A stretch of 54,830 nucleotides of DNA from Candidatus Aminicenantota bacterium (GTDB lineage: Bacteria; Acidobacteriota; Aminicenantia; Aminicenantales; Saccharicenantaceae). The translations under genes and the position numbers were made by a program. This document shows, piece by piece, positions 9,724 through 16,764 of this stretch; positions within the stretch are counted from its first letter, which is position 1, and every line of letters starts with the position of its first letter. The stretch covers positions 1-54,830 of the forward strand of contig JABLWX010000044.1 in NCBI GenBank assembly GCA_013178315.1. Direction: 5' to 3'. The notes beneath the pieces were generated by a model, which was not told where the DNA came from, made no database searches, and saw only the letters and a program-made list of their open reading frames with translations.

Positions 9724-12591
9724 CTATTTTATTTTTGCTCTCAGTAGAAGGGCCGGAAGGATGGTCAGGGCCGAGAAGGCCGCCAGGAACATCGAGCCGA
9801 CCATTATGCCGCCGAAGGTCCGCAGCGGGCTCATGGAAGCCAGGAGTAGCACGGCAAAGCCCAGCATGACGGCCAGGGAATTGGCGACGATGGCCCCTCC
9901 CTTTTCCCGGAAAGCCAGGGTCACGGCCTCGGGACCGGTCAGCCCCTGCTTCAGGCCCACCAGCATCCCGTGAACGAAATGAATGGAATAATCTATGCCG
10001 ACCCCAATGGAGACCGAGGCCACCATCATGGTCACATAATCCAGCTTCACCCCGGCCAGCCCGAAGAAACCATAGACCACACCCAGGGTAAATACGATAG
10101 GTGTCACGGAAATGAGTCCCAGCCGGAGCGACTTCCGGATTAGAAGCATGATGAAAAAGGTAATAACCAGGGCCAGGGCAAACGATTGAAGCTGCGACTG
10201 GAAAAGGTAGTGGTCAAGCTGGGTCAGGGCCGGCGGCAAGCCACTCTGGTCAATGAGTTCAAACCCTATAATCCTGAACCTGTCCTCCGGGGCGGCCATT
10301 TCTCCGAGACGGTTATCCGGCAGGACCACCAGCTCGTCGGCCAGCTCGTACAGCAGACCCCGCAGGCGTTTCTCGAAGTGATCATTGTTCCTGGCCACCG
10401 CCGGCAGGAATAGCTCGAGCTTCTTCAAGGCTCTATCCGTGGCCACTTTTTCCCTGGTCTCTTTTAACCTCAGGTTCAGGGTGCTGGCTACCCGCCGGGC
10501 AGTTTCTTCATCATAAAGCCTGGAAGGAACCGACTGCCTCAATACCTCCAGATAGCCGGCTTCACCTCCCCGACCCGCTTCTGTAACTTTAATCAAATTC
10601 TCCAGGAGCTGGCGCCGGGCTACCTCCGGCAGGTCAAAATCGAACGATTCGGCCCGGATATAATTTTCTGCTTCTCCCCGCCACAGTGATACAACCTCGG
10701 GAGCAAACAGGGACGGCCAGTTCATTATGACCTCGTTCAGGGATTCTTCTGCCGCCCGGCGGTCCAGGGTCGATCCGGGGGCGTATCTCTGGAGCAGCCA
10801 GCCCACCTCGTCCAGAAGGTAAGCAGCTTCTTTCTTTCTGAGCTCGGCCCTCGTTTCTTCAGGCAGCCCGGAAAGATTGATTTCCCTGAATTTTCCCGGC
10901 ATCTCGCTGGCCAGGAATTCCCCGATGGCCTTCCTGAGCTTCCAGTGAAACTCGGTGCGGGCCGAAGAAGTCCTGGTAAAGACCAGTCCCTCTGTAAAAT
11001 CATCCGAAATGAGCTGGCGGAGTTCGTTTCTTCCTTCCAGGAAAAACCAGAGGTTGGCCACCTGGCCGTCGGTCTCGGGCAAAGAAAATCGGCCGTTCAT
11101 CTTCTCGTTGAGTTCTTCTACCAGCTCGGCCACCGACAGGGGCAGCCCGCACTGCGGCAGCGAGGCCATGAAATTTTCCGCCCGCCGCAGCACGCGGAGG
11201 GCCCCGGCCGACCTCAGGTTTTCCGTCCTGAAATAGATATTAAGTGGAGCCGCTCCGTCAAAATTGGCCCGGACGACACGGTCGGCCAGGCGCGGTTCGC
11301 TGGCTGGTGGGAAGTAATTGGTAAAATTGACCTCCCGCTTAATCCCGGGAATCCAGATGATAAAGAAGGCAAATACTACCAGGCCGAAGATGATTATGGC
11401 CCCGGCCCGGTGGATGACCCGGTCGGCCAGCCAGTTGAAAATGGCCGGGTTAACCAGGGAAATTTCTTGTTTCTGCACTTTTCTGGGAGGGTCGGGCAAA
11501 AGGTAAAAGGCCGAAGGAATAAGGGCATAGGTAATGAGCATGGCCAGCATGACCCCTATCCCGGCAAAAATTCCAAAATTGCTGATGAGTCCGAGCCTGG
11601 CCGTAAGAAAGGAAACAAATCCCACCATGGTGGTGGCCGCGGCCATGAACACAGGAAGGGCCACCCGCCCGGCACTCCTGGCAATCACGTCCACGCGGCT
11701 CTGGCCATCCGTCCGGTTCTGCTCGATGGAATTGACCAGGTGAATGCCATAGGCAGAGCCCAGGCCGATTAGCAGCACAGGCAGGGCCGGGGTCACCAGG
11801 TTCATCGGCACCCGGAACAGGGCCATCAGCCCGAAGACCCAGGCCGTGGACAGCCAGACCACCAGAGAAGGCAGGAAAACCGCCCGCAGCCGGCGGAAGC
11901 TCAGGTACAGAACGAGGAGAACGGTCAGGACGATGACCGGGACCAGGAGCCTGAGGTCTTTTTTAAGGTACCAGTCCGCATAGTAGGTAAAACAGGGCTC
12001 GCCGGCATAATGGATTTCCGCCCGGTCGGCCAGGTGCTTTTCTATTATGGTCCTGACCACCCGGGCAAAGGCCTGGCTGCCGTCCACTCCGCTGCGGAGA
12101 TAGACCGCCACCCCGAGCCAGCGTCCGTCGGGCGAGAGGTAAGTATTGACATAATTTTCTTTGCCCAGGGCTTCTTCCAGCCTGGCTTTCAGCCCGGCCG
12201 CGGTTTCGGGAATTTCTTCCAGGAAATCCGAGACGACCACCTCCCCGTCCCGCGATTGAATATTCGGGGCCGAGATGATGGAAGTGACGTAAAAAATTTC
12301 CGGCTGCCGGGCCAGTTCTTCCGTGGCCAGCTTGAGGCTTTTAAGAAGGTCGGGTCGGAAAGTTTCTCCTTCCTTAGCCCTCAGGGTAACCAGCACCAGC
12401 TCGGTCGAGCCGAACTTTTCTCCGGTATCGAGGAGCAGCTTGACCACGGGGTCGTCCTGGGGCAACCAGGAAGTGAATTTGTTCTGGTAGTGAAGATGCC
12501 TGAACTGCAGGGCAAAAAAGACCGTGATAACAACCAGGAGCAGGATTATCAACCAGCTGAATGGAAGAAGCTTTTTCCAGACCTTTTCCAT
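9724..12591 (-). CDS. MMPL/RND-superfamily exporter
   Basis: 955-aa inner-membrane, proton-driven exporter of the MMPL (HAE3/HpnN-like) class. It has the duplicated RND layout. TM1 at about 13-29 is followed by a periplasmic domain, then five TMs including 'GLGSAYGIHLVNSI'. Then come TM7 (about 400), a second large periplasmic domain of about 380 residues and a final TM bundle with 'GVGIDYSIHFVHG'. These sterol-sensing-like motifs are characteristic. AGGAGG precedes the ATG. It lies downstream of the TetR gene and upstream of the LolA-like and barrel genes. Related clusters move lipids or polyketide-like molecules to the outer membrane. No membrane-fusion protein is encoded nearby, consistent with a LolA-type carrier instead. 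Confidence 0.9.
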   Translation of the reverse strand: MEKVWKKLLPFSWLIILLLVVITVFFALQFRHLHYQNKFTSWLPQDDPVVKLLLDTGEKFGSTELVLVTLRAKEGETFRPDLLKSLKLATEELARQPEIFYVTSIISAPNIQSRDGEVVVSDFLEEIPETAAGLKARLEEALGKENYVNTYLSPDGRWLGVAVYLRSGVDGSQAFARVVRTIIEKHLADRAEIHYAGEPCFTYYADWYLKKDLRLLVPVIVLTVLLVLYLSFRRLRAVFLPSLVVWLSTAWVFGLMALFRVPMNLVTPALPVLLIGLGSAYGIHLVNSIEQNRTDGQSRVDVIARSAGRVALPVFMAAATTMVGFVSFLTARLGLISNFGIFAGIGVMLAMLITYALIPSAFYLLPDPPRKVQKQEISLVNPAIFNWLADRVIHRAGAIIIFGLVVFAFFIIWIPGIKREVNFTNYFPPASEPRLADRVVRANFDGAAPLNIYFRTENLRSAGALRVLRRAENFMASLPQCGLPLSVAELVEELNEKMNGRFSLPETDGQVANLWFFLEGRNELRQLISDDFTEGLVFTRTSSARTEFHWKLRKAIGEFLASEMPGKFREINLSGLPEETRAELRKKEAAYLLDEVGWLLQRYAPGSTLDRRAAEESLNEVIMNWPSLFAPEVVSLWRGEAENYIRAESFDFDLPEVARRQLLENLIKVTEAGRGGEAGYLEVLRQSVPSRLYDEETARRVASTLNLRLKETREKVATDRALKKLELFLPAVARNNDHFEKRLRGLLYELADELVVLPDNRLGEMAAPEDRFRIIGFELIDQSGLPPALTQLDHYLFQSQLQSFALALVITFFIMLLIRKSLRLGLISVTPIVFTLGVVYGFFGLAGVKLDYVTMMVASVSIGVGIDYSIHFVHGMLVGLKQGLTGPEAVTLAFREKGGAIVANSLAVMLGFAVLLLASMSPLRTFGGIMVGSMFLAAFSALTILPALLLRAKIK

Positions 12592-12738: not shown

Positions 12739-13341
12739 TCAGGCCTTGACCCCCTCCAGGTACTGGTCCAGGAGTTCGCTGCTGATCTTCTTCAGCGGCA
12801 CCCTGCGCTTTTTAATCGTCCAGTAGGAAAAAGCGGTGTAAATCAGGCCCAAGAAATGCATGGCCGCCACCGTCACATCCAGGTCAGCTTTCAACTTCTT
12901 CTGTTTAATGGCCTTCTGAATTACCTTCTTTAAGAAACCAACTATCTCCGAGATGATCCCGTCAATCTTGTCCTGGAGCTCTTCGTCGCCCAGGTAAATT
13001 TCATCGGAGTAGATGATCTTGAAGATGCCCGGGAATTGTTCGAGAAAGTTCAGGAAGAGGTAGATCACCTGCCTCAAAGCCTCAAGGGAATCTTCCGTTT
13101 TTTCTTCCACCTCGGCCAGGTAGTTCCAGGCGTCCTGCAGGATGTTGTCCAGGATAAACGAAATCAGGTCGCGCTTGGACTTGAAATGGCGGTAGAGAGC
13201 CGATTCCACGAAGCCCACCTCATGGGCCAGCCGGGCCACGGTCAGGCCCTTGACGCCCTTCTGGTCGATTATCTTAAGGGCGGAGGTGATTATATCCCCC
13301 TTGCGGGATTCAGGAGTCTGGAAAAAGGTCGCCTTTTTCAT
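12739..13341 (-). CDS. TetR/AcrR-family regulator of the exporter cluster
   Basis: 200-aa one-component regulator. N-terminal helix-turn-helix at about 10-57: 'RKGDIITSALKIIDQKGVKGLTVARLA' region and 'SALYRHFKSKRDLI', the TetR recognition-helix signature. The C-terminal ligand domain is helical. I place the start at 13341 (ATG after GGAGGCCTG) rather than an open extension to 13368, because the extension would run into the operator. A consensus promoter and palindrome sit immediately upstream, so it very likely represses itself and the genes behind it. It is divergent from the ferritin-like gene (114-bp gap), which may share control. Confidence 0.93.
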   Translation of the reverse strand: MKKATFFQTPESRKGDIITSALKIIDQKGVKGLTVARLAHEVGFVESALYRHFKSKRDLISFILDNILQDAWNYLAEVEEKTEDSLEALRQVIYLFLNFLEQFPGIFKIIYSDEIYLGDEELQDKIDGIISEIVGFLKKVIQKAIKQKKLKADLDVTVAAMHFLGLIYTAFSYWTIKKRRVPLKKISSELLDQYLEGVKA

Positions 13342-13356
13342 CAGGCCTCCATGTAA

Positions 13357-13372
13357 GTGAACATTCATTCAC
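13357..13372. promoter_or_regulatory. Candidate TetR operator
   Basis: The 16-bp imperfect palindrome GTGAACATTCATTCAC has arms GTGAA and TTCAC around a 6-nt centre. It starts right after the -10 box of the tetR promoter, where bound repressor would block initiation. TetR-family sites of the TGAATGAATNTTCAT kind are similar. Confidence 0.6.
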
Positions 13373-13400
13373 ATTATAAGCAAAAAGAAAGACCTGTCAA
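13373..13400 (-). promoter_or_regulatory. Near-consensus sigma70 promoter of tetR and the exporter cluster
   Basis: Minus strand: perfect -35 TTGACA (13400-13395), 16-nt spacer, perfect -10 TATAAT (13378-13373). Initiation would be about 7 nt downstream, inside the palindrome, about 30 nt ahead of the tetR ATG. Confidence 0.8.
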
Positions 13401-13482
13401 TACCCGGATGTTGAATTTTGAAACGATTTAGTCTATTCTCTACTTTTTATTTTTTTGCCAAGGATGATTAAGGAAAAGATTC

Positions 13483-13969
13483 ATGAGCCTATCTGCGATT
13501 ATCATTGATGCCATCGACCTCGAAACCCTGATGGCCGAGATTTACCGGCTGGCGGCCGAGCTGGCCCCGAGCGAGACCATTTCCAGGGAATTGGCCCGCC
13601 TGTCCGGGGAAGAGCGCGAACACGCCAACCTCCTCCGGGCCGGCCGGAACTACCAGGCCAGGGTCCCCGAGGCCTTTGGCCAGGCCGGGGTCTCCAAAGA
13701 AGAACTCCTGGAAGGTATAAAGGCCGGCCAGGATCTTCTGGCCAGGATCTTCTGGCCAGGATCTTCTGGCCAGGATCGAGAACAAAAGGCTTCTCCTGCC
13801 CCAGATTCTTGATGAATTAATAAAGCTGGAAAGTCGCTTTGAAAAAATCCATCTTCACACCCTGGTTGAAATTCAGGACGAAAGCCTGAAAAAGCTTTTC
13901 CAGAGGCTGGCCGGAGAAGACCGGGACCACCTGAATCGCCTGACTCGATTGTTAGAACTTCTAAAGTAA
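13483..13969 (+). pseudogene. Ferritin-like (rubrerythrin-type) protein, frameshifted by a 14-bp repeat
   Basis: Four-helix ferritin-like diiron family, generally peroxide or iron handling. From the ATG at 13483 (weak GGAAAAG site) the frame encodes helices with 'LETLMAEIYRLAAEL' and the metal motif 'EEREH'. It then enters three tandem copies of a 14-bp unit at 13726 and ends early at 13812. If two of the three copies (28 bp) are removed, the frame continues without a stop to TAA at 13967-13969. It then adds a second half with 'LESRFEKIHLHTL' and 'GEDRDHLNRL', which supplies the missing helices and a protein of about 152 residues. The reading frame restored this way is the normal one. The present state is off. 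It is divergent from tetR. Confidence 0.8.
13726..13777 (+). repeat. 14-bp tandem repeat (3 full copies plus 10 bp)
   Basis: Unit ggccaggatcttct at 13726-13739, 13740-13753 and 13754-13767, then a partial ggccaggatc (13768-13777). The ancestral gene probably had one unit plus the 10-bp partial (coding Gly-Gln-Asp-Leu-Leu-Ala-Arg-Ile), whose direct repeat favours strand slippage. As 14 is not a multiple of 3, each added unit changes frame. Confidence 0.95.
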
Positions 13970-14013: not shown

Positions 14014-16764
14014 TCAGGACACCATTTTAAGCTGCAGTACTATGCCACCTTTCAACTGGACTGGCTGCCTGAATTTCAAACTCAACCTTTTCCCCCTCAG
14101 CCCGACCACCGCTTTTACATCTTTTTCCGCGAGGCGGCAACTTACAGACTTTAAGGCCGGTGAAGCCGTGGCCGGCAATTCTATGTTCAATTCACGGAGG
14201 TTGAAACTCCCCTGCTCCAGCCTGAGCTCGCAGCTGAAAACCCTGTCCTGGCCGAGGCGCTGCTCATAGGTGCCCCAGGTTGAGCCGATAGACCAGAAGG
14301 TCCGGAAATCTTCCTGGTTTATGGCCGGAGAAAAGCCCAGGCGTCCTTCGGGTGAAGAATAGCTGAAACCGGAGAGCGCCAGCAATATTCCCCAGGAAGA
14401 CATGGCCCGGGCGTAGTGATGGCCGCATTCCACCTCGTTCCAGGGGTTGCGACGGCGGCCGTCGTAGCGGTCGCGAACTGCCTTGACAATGGATAGTCCT
14501 TCCCTCAACATCCCTTCATAGATCAGGTGGCTGGCCACATGGTACTCAATTCCGGTCCAGACTTCATCAGAATACGGGAACGGGAGGGGCGGACGACCGC
14601 CGCGGGGCCAGGTGCAGAGCAGCAGGCCCTTCTCGTCGGCCAGGGCGTAGGTTCGCTGTACGTTGGCAAAGTCATAGAAATTATCCCGGAAATTGTAGCG
14701 GTAAATTGATCCCAGGGTCTTTTTTATCCTGGCTTCATCCAGGAACCGGCCGAGGCCGGCCACCATGGACAGCCACTGGCCGAGGAGCTGGTCGGAAAGG
14801 CAGCCCTCTCCGTACTGGTATTTTTTCTGGAGGGCCTGGTCGTATTTCTGGATGAAAAATTCGCCGTTCCAGAGCAGGGTCTCATAATTCTTCTTTCCTT
14901 TTTCTAAAATATTGCGATATTCGGCCGCAGCCTTCTTATCGCCCACGGCCTCAGCCATCCTGGCCCCCGCTTCCAGCGCTCCCAGGTAAAAACCGCTGAG
15001 CATGGAGTTCGGCCCGAAGAATTCGATGTCGTAGGTGTTGTGCTGCTCGTCTTCCAGCAGGCCGTCGCGGTCCTTGTCCCAGCCAGTCCAGGCATATTCG
15101 AGCGCCTTTTTAGCCTGGGACCAGAGCTTTTTAAGGAAGTTCAAATCGCCGCTTATCTGCCAGTCCCGGTAAAGGTTTATGATTCGGCCGAGCTGGCCGT
15201 CAGCCGCCGGCTTGAAGTTCCAGTATTTCTCGCCAAGAGGAAGGCTGGTGCGGAAGACCATGGCCCCGTCGGGCCTGACGTTGACCAGGAAATCGGTCTC
15301 CCGCATGGAACGTTCGAGCTCGGGGAAAAGGAAGGCCAGGCTCTGGGCATAGTTCCAGACGTGGGCGCAGTTGAGCGGACAGCAGCCAGAGCGGTCGCTG
15401 CAGCCTTCGAAGGCAAAGAACCGGCCGTCGTCCAGCCAGAGACAGGTTGGCGTGCGGATGATGGAAGCCTGGCTGGAAACGGCATCGAGGACATAAGGCG
15501 GCAGGCTTGAGGAGAAGAAGACTTCCCTGAAATGTCGCGTTTTTTGCTCGAGCCCGTTCAAGTTCTGGAAAAGGTATTCAGCCACCTGCCAGGCATCCCT
15601 GAATTTTTTGGTGTAATAGGGATGATAAAGGCGGCCACGCTGTTCGCGGACGACATCAAAGTAATCAACCAGGTTGGGAAAATGCCAGCTTATGACGATG
15701 GGCAGAACCACTTCGCCGCCAGCCGGGACGGTGGCCTTAAGACCGAGGCTGCCGACATCGGTGCGGCCGTCGGGTGATGGTTCTTCCGCGTCGAGATCCT
15801 TGAGCTGGCCGTCATCGGAAAAATCATCCCAGAAAATGTGCAGGTCATCCCACCATTCGCCGCGAACCCAGTGGGAAACATAGGTTAGATCGGTCCAGGT
15901 GGTGGCCAGGGCCAGGGTGCCATAAGCCGGTGAATCAGGCTGGACTTTTTTTGAGTAAAGATATAGTCCGGAAACCGATCCCCGCACCACACGGTTTACA
16001 TTCTGGCCGAAGGCGGCGTTGAACAGGGAATTGAATTCCTCCTGGCCTTCAAAGCCAATCGGATTGGCCACGGAGCCGGCCAGCGTTATTTTTATCTCTT
16101 TACCTGTTAGATTCTTCACCCGGTACTTGAGCACGGCCACAGGTAACCCGGAATTCTCAGCATCGCCGGGGATAAAAGGATTAAGGGCTTCAACAGTCAC
16201 GGTTACAGGCAAACCAGGATCGCTGAGTTCGACCTCAGCCATCGGATACTCGCCGCGGAAGAGGGCGGTCCTGAAGCGAGGCAGCCCTGGCACTTCCTCG
16301 CGGCGATAGCCAAAGCCAGCAGAGTAAGGAGGAGTAATCTGTCCTTCCAGCACCCGGCTGAACTTTTTTCCATCGCTTTCCATATATAGGGCAAAGAACG
16401 TAAATGGGAAATTTATTCCTTTGCCGGGGCGGTTGAAGATTTCCCAGTCGCGAAGATTGCCTCGACCGCCCAGGGAAATCGTGCCCGTGCCTATCCCCCC
16501 GAGCGGAAAAGCTATCTCCTTAAGCTGTTCACCGCGATATACCCCTGGCCTTCCAATTCTGAACAGTTCATCATCCGGGTAAGGCAGCTTTATATTTTGT
16601 TGCTCATTACTTTTAATAGATAAACCACCATTCCTCTCTTTCCAGGCTTTCAAGTCCCCGGCCTCGAAAAAGATGAAAAGAATAAACAATAGTTGAAATA
16701 CCAGGATAATCTTTCTGAATCGTCTTCTTGAACTGGAATCTTTGCTTATCATTCTAATTTCCAT
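14014..16764 (-). CDS. Exported GH116 family beta-glucosidase/glucosylceramidase
   Basis: 916-aa retaining glycoside hydrolase related to human GBA2 and Thermoanaerobacterium TxGH116 (beta-gluco/xylosidase). The N-terminus is basic (RRRFRK) with a hydrophobic segment at about 19-35, so it is exported or membrane-tethered. The N-terminal beta-sandwich has 'FPLGGIGTGTISLGGRGNLRDW', trimmed here to its signature FPLGGIGTG. The catalytic (alpha/alpha)6 domain has 'HNTYDIEFFGPN' and 'YSDEVWTGIEYHVA'; I take the first Glu to be near the nucleophile and the second region to hold the acid/base Asp, from memory of the family. GAGGGG precedes the ATG. It is a single gene flanked by unrelated genes; the substrate is unknown. 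No sugar-uptake genes lie next to it. Confidence 0.88.
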   Translation of the reverse strand: MEIRMISKDSSSRRRFRKIILVFQLLFILFIFFEAGDLKAWKERNGGLSIKSNEQQNIKLPYPDDELFRIGRPGVYRGEQLKEIAFPLGGIGTGTISLGGRGNLRDWEIFNRPGKGINFPFTFFALYMESDGKKFSRVLEGQITPPYSAGFGYRREEVPGLPRFRTALFRGEYPMAEVELSDPGLPVTVTVEALNPFIPGDAENSGLPVAVLKYRVKNLTGKEIKITLAGSVANPIGFEGQEEFNSLFNAAFGQNVNRVVRGSVSGLYLYSKKVQPDSPAYGTLALATTWTDLTYVSHWVRGEWWDDLHIFWDDFSDDGQLKDLDAEEPSPDGRTDVGSLGLKATVPAGGEVVLPIVISWHFPNLVDYFDVVREQRGRLYHPYYTKKFRDAWQVAEYLFQNLNGLEQKTRHFREVFFSSSLPPYVLDAVSSQASIIRTPTCLWLDDGRFFAFEGCSDRSGCCPLNCAHVWNYAQSLAFLFPELERSMRETDFLVNVRPDGAMVFRTSLPLGEKYWNFKPAADGQLGRIINLYRDWQISGDLNFLKKLWSQAKKALEYAWTGWDKDRDGLLEDEQHNTYDIEFFGPNSMLSGFYLGALEAGARMAEAVGDKKAAAEYRNILEKGKKNYETLLWNGEFFIQKYDQALQKKYQYGEGCLSDQLLGQWLSMVAGLGRFLDEARIKKTLGSIYRYNFRDNFYDFANVQRTYALADEKGLLLCTWPRGGRPPLPFPYSDEVWTGIEYHVASHLIYEGMLREGLSIVKAVRDRYDGRRRNPWNEVECGHHYARAMSSWGILLALSGFSYSSPEGRLGFSPAINQEDFRTFWSIGSTWGTYEQRLGQDRVFSCELRLEQGSFNLRELNIELPATASPALKSVSCRLAEKDVKAVVGLRGKRLSLKFRQPVQLKGGIVLQLKMVS

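Follow-up and report, generated by a model that had tools for sequence, protein, structure and literature searches.

A gene for a ferritin-like protein in this Candidatus Aminicenantota bacterium is broken by a short tandem array that probably arose in a recent, lineage-specific slippage expansion, a knock-out of a dispensable gene that would be revertible in principle. There is no sign that switching between the intact and the broken state was selected.

The tandem array and the broken reading frame

Inside the ferritin-like open reading frame (ORF) on the plus strand of the window, i.e., the whole stretch of 54,830 nucleotides that was analysed, three identical 14-bp units are followed by a 10-bp partial copy (3 x GGCCAGGATCTTCT + GGCCAGGATC; 13726-13777), which makes the site 28 bp longer than the one-unit state of the relatives. 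Tandem Repeats Finder returns a period of 14, 3.7 copies, a 100% match and a score of 104, in exact agreement with the structure first noted. Since the second-highest score in the whole window is 54 and the self-match run reaches 38 bases at an offset of 14 compared to at most 12 at the other offsets from 4 to 100 (excluding 28 and 42), the array lies far beyond chance for the window. No other perfect tandem repeat with 2.5 or more copies and a period of 4-100 was detected in a 271-kb sample of the 2.94-Mb genome, and the array itself is absent from all six intact orthologues and, with up to two mismatches allowed, from each of 59 related genomes.

The length of the unit alters the reading frame, and no stop codon lies within the array. 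Translated from 13483, the ORF spans 95 aa without any unit, 107 aa with two and 109 aa with the three units found, while lengths of 152, 166 and 180 aa for one, four and seven units bear out the claim that the gene is in frame only with 1, 4, 7 and so forth copies. In the three-unit state (13483-13812, plus strand), translation leaves the native frame at codon 90, and the 109-aa product is composed of 89 native residues followed by missense. The downstream half of the gene continues in another frame (13751-13969, plus strand) with a 99% match to residues 81-152 of the one-unit protein and runs unbroken as far as the normal stop (13967-13969), which the one-unit frame of 152 aa also reaches, just as had been anticipated for a ferritin-like 3' half. 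No ORF of at least 40 aa with a start codon ends at the stop of this downstream frame (13969).

Based on its sequence, the one-unit ORF would encode a ferritin-like protein of the rubrerythrin superfamily. It passes the cut-off of 22.8 bits for Pfam PF02915 (Rubrerythrin) with 23.4 bits, as does the orthologue of the congener G014 with 23.6 bits, and neither half of the split gene reaches this cut-off when scored alone. A structure model of the G014 orthologue (pLDDT 90.8) is nearly all helix, and a helix formed by residues 72-90 ends with the site of the array (codons 82-89); its best structure matches include 2fzf, Dps, bacterioferritin and nigerythrin, none of them at E <= 0.001. The residues E14, E44xxH47, E107, E111xxH114 and D137xxH140 are invariant in the three closest intact orthologues, and the same paired E / ExxH-type residues are mostly retained in more distant ones; we infer that E14, E44/H47, E107, E111/H114 and D137/H140 bind metal. 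Judged from its translation and the orthologue model, the 109-aa product lacks the second helix pair and retains only the first three of these residues. Three further intact rubrerythrin-family genes are present in the genome.

Relatives, gene neighbourhood and the adjacent regulator

Intact orthologues of 151-152 aa are found in 6 of 18 congeners (Ca. Saccharicenans), and the gene was not found in the other 12, some of whose genomes are incomplete. Across the order, 17 of 94 genomes searched have a match, this genome counted, and all matches apart from the one described here are in a single piece with no internal stop; a frameshift at the array site was looked for in the relatives and seen in none. 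The ferritin-like gene is flanked by a convergent gene for a GH116-family glycoside hydrolase (14014-16764, minus strand) and by the gene of a TetR-family regulator (12739-13341, minus strand), downstream of which an MMPL/RND-family transporter is encoded (9724-12591, minus strand). Five of the six congeners with an orthologue share this order of GH116, ferritin-like, TetR and MMPL genes, and in the sixth, G012, the ferritin-like gene and TetR lie on separate small contigs. In G005, the ferritin-like gene is lacking and ca. 170 bp separate the GH116 and TetR genes; the ferritin-like gene is likewise missing from its place in G015, and this patchy presence makes it an accessory gene in the genus. 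In G015, the place is taken by ca. 2.8 kb of other DNA with a 655-aa open frame (L053:518-3310) that reads like a membrane transporter. Separately, a comparison in 300-bp steps shows that a segment of the MMPL gene (ca. 9821-12220) matches congener G011 at 97-100% identity (mostly 99.7-100%), while the flanks of this segment reach 72-87% identity to G011 and are nearer to G014. This pattern suggests either that DNA was recently exchanged between species or that the contig is chimeric.

The ferritin-like gene had also been placed next to a TetR-controlled promoter. An operator-like site does exist at 13356-13369, reading AGTGAACATTCATT here and forming the perfect palindrome AGTGAATATTCACT in six congeners, one of which is G005. 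It is located just downstream of the -10 box of the tetR promoter on the minus strand (13373-13400), composed of TTGACA (13400-13395), a 16-bp spacer and TATAAT (13378-13373). Given this position and the perfect copy in G005, which has no ferritin-like gene, the palindrome most likely serves the autoregulation of tetR-MMPL, so the site stands while the promoter that it would control is most likely tetR's own and not that of the ferritin-like gene. The latter probably uses a TTGAAT element followed by a TCTATT-like box (13411-13440, plus strand), of which congeners have kept the TTGA portion; the two promoters do not overlap. The palindrome carries two substitutions in this genome, one of which creates an ATG at 13368 that opens a 209-aa TetR ORF covering the operator. 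The real TetR start is probably 13341 (MKKATFFQ...), as in the congeners, and not 13368.

Origin and age of the array

The orthologues point to a simple route toward the present array. At the corresponding site, G014 reads GCCCAGGATCTTCTGGCCAGGATC, a single unit with CCAGGATC repeated at 14-bp spacing, and G011 likewise has this 8-bp direct repeat; these two nearest relatives are thus both in the one-unit state, and G004 and the remaining orthologues have no such repeat. In the genome studied here, a C to G change at 13727 on the plus strand (codon 82, GCC to GGC), unique among the orthologues compared, extends the 8-bp direct repeat to 10 bp. The ancestor would accordingly have carried the 8-bp repeat at 14-bp spacing that is seen in the two nearest relatives, and the substitution, itself directly visible, would have lengthened it before slippage on the 10-bp seed added two 14-bp units; such a seed would explain the gain of whole units. 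It is also possible that the substitution did not come before the expansion and that the first unit was instead homogenised afterward. The two extra units break the frame at codon 90 at the cost of the second helix pair and most metal-ligand residues, a loss that was probably tolerated given that the gene is accessory. The frame would open again if two units were lost or one more were gained, so that reversion may occur.

The expansion appears to be young because its units are 100% identical. The 3' part of the gene has a dN/dS of 0.14 relative to G014, compared to 0.09-0.13 for pairs of intact genes, and this continuing constraint implies that the break is recent or that the off state is not permanent. 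A comparison of branches (10 nonsynonymous and 7 synonymous changes for this genome versus 3 and 6 for G014; Fisher p = 0.41) gives no evidence of faster decay on the branch of this genome.

Slippage expansion, contingency locus or artefact

The original prediction saw in the array a contingency locus, i.e., a tract that changes length often, switches the protein on (1, 4 or 7 units) or off and is maintained by selection for the switch. A stop-free array inside an ORF that is open with 1, 4 or 7 units of a length not divisible by three would suit such a locus, as would two gene halves that are both still intact and constrained, but the array is missing from all relatives and, at 3.7 copies, is a short tract of the kind that is slow to change in Escherichia coli O157, where VNTR alleles of up to 13 units had low mutation rates (PMC3777172). 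No second array of this kind was found in the 271-kb sample of the 2.94-Mb genome. Members of the genus can do without the gene, whose product would be a small helical-bundle protein and not the usual surface structure. Moreover, a four-unit allele would extend a helix by 14 inserted residues that include W-P-G-S-S. Taken together, these points make a contingency locus improbable. Phase-variable loci of this type are mostly known from pathogens, and a literature search on Acidobacteria-like or environmental bacteria found nothing relevant to phase variation; we likewise give little credence to the idea that a newly arisen phase-variable switch flips a ferritin-like protein in an uncultured environmental bacterium. 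The simple-sequence contingency loci of Haemophilus and Neisseria (PMC2651432, PMC5084427) share with our array a repeat within the reading frame whose unit is not a multiple of three but differ from it in that ours is unconserved, has few copies, is solitary in the sample and lies in a non-surface gene.

Alternatively, the gene might be intact in living cells, with a single unit, and the array an artefact of library or assembly, considering that the assembly is fragmented (155 contigs) and, as with its named relatives, probably a MAG, and that assemblies are error-prone at tandem repeats. However, a de Bruijn graph built from the one-unit allele is linear for all tested values of k (15 to 77), and a de Bruijn-type assembler can therefore not invent extra units; a loop in the graph requires at least two units in the library molecules, and two units are likewise out of frame. 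With large neighbouring ORFs unbroken as well, we find an artefact unlikely, though slippage during PCR or other amplification, or a miscount between two and three units, may have occurred. It is hardly conceivable that a programmed frameshift or translational restart lets the split gene yield a working protein or a pair of subunits: the two frames do overlap and stay open throughout the array, but no relative has a frameshift at this site, no start codon leaves at least 40 aa of the downstream frame, and the array does not resemble known slippery sites.

A recent slippage expansion thus remains the probable explanation, and of the earlier alternative of a one-off mutation or assembly error it is the mutation that fits best, with assembly error less likely. 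In its favour, we count the intact, array-free orthologues in six congeners, the young and identical units, the constrained 3' half, the solitary array in 271 kb, the absence of the gene from 12 of 18 congeners and the three other rubrerythrin-family genes; against it, an undecayed 3' half would also be expected from a standing equilibrium of on and off states. In Mycobacterium tuberculosis, reversible frameshift indels are known to silence genes (PMC8339072), and our case resembles these "wounds" and scars in that an indel breaks a nonessential gene and a second one could undo the damage, but it differs as a 28-bp gain of 14-bp units in one genome with no reversion seen. Like bacterial variable-number tandem repeats, for which changes of copy number by whole units are attributed to slippage, the array would have grown in steps of its unit, though with very few copies and known from a single genome (PMC3777172). 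The case is a caution that one genome with a frame-shifting repeat does not by itself amount to evidence of phase variation, and it offers a clean example of a short direct repeat seeding a frame-breaking tandem expansion in a gene that can be dispensed with, the ancestral state being kept in sister species.
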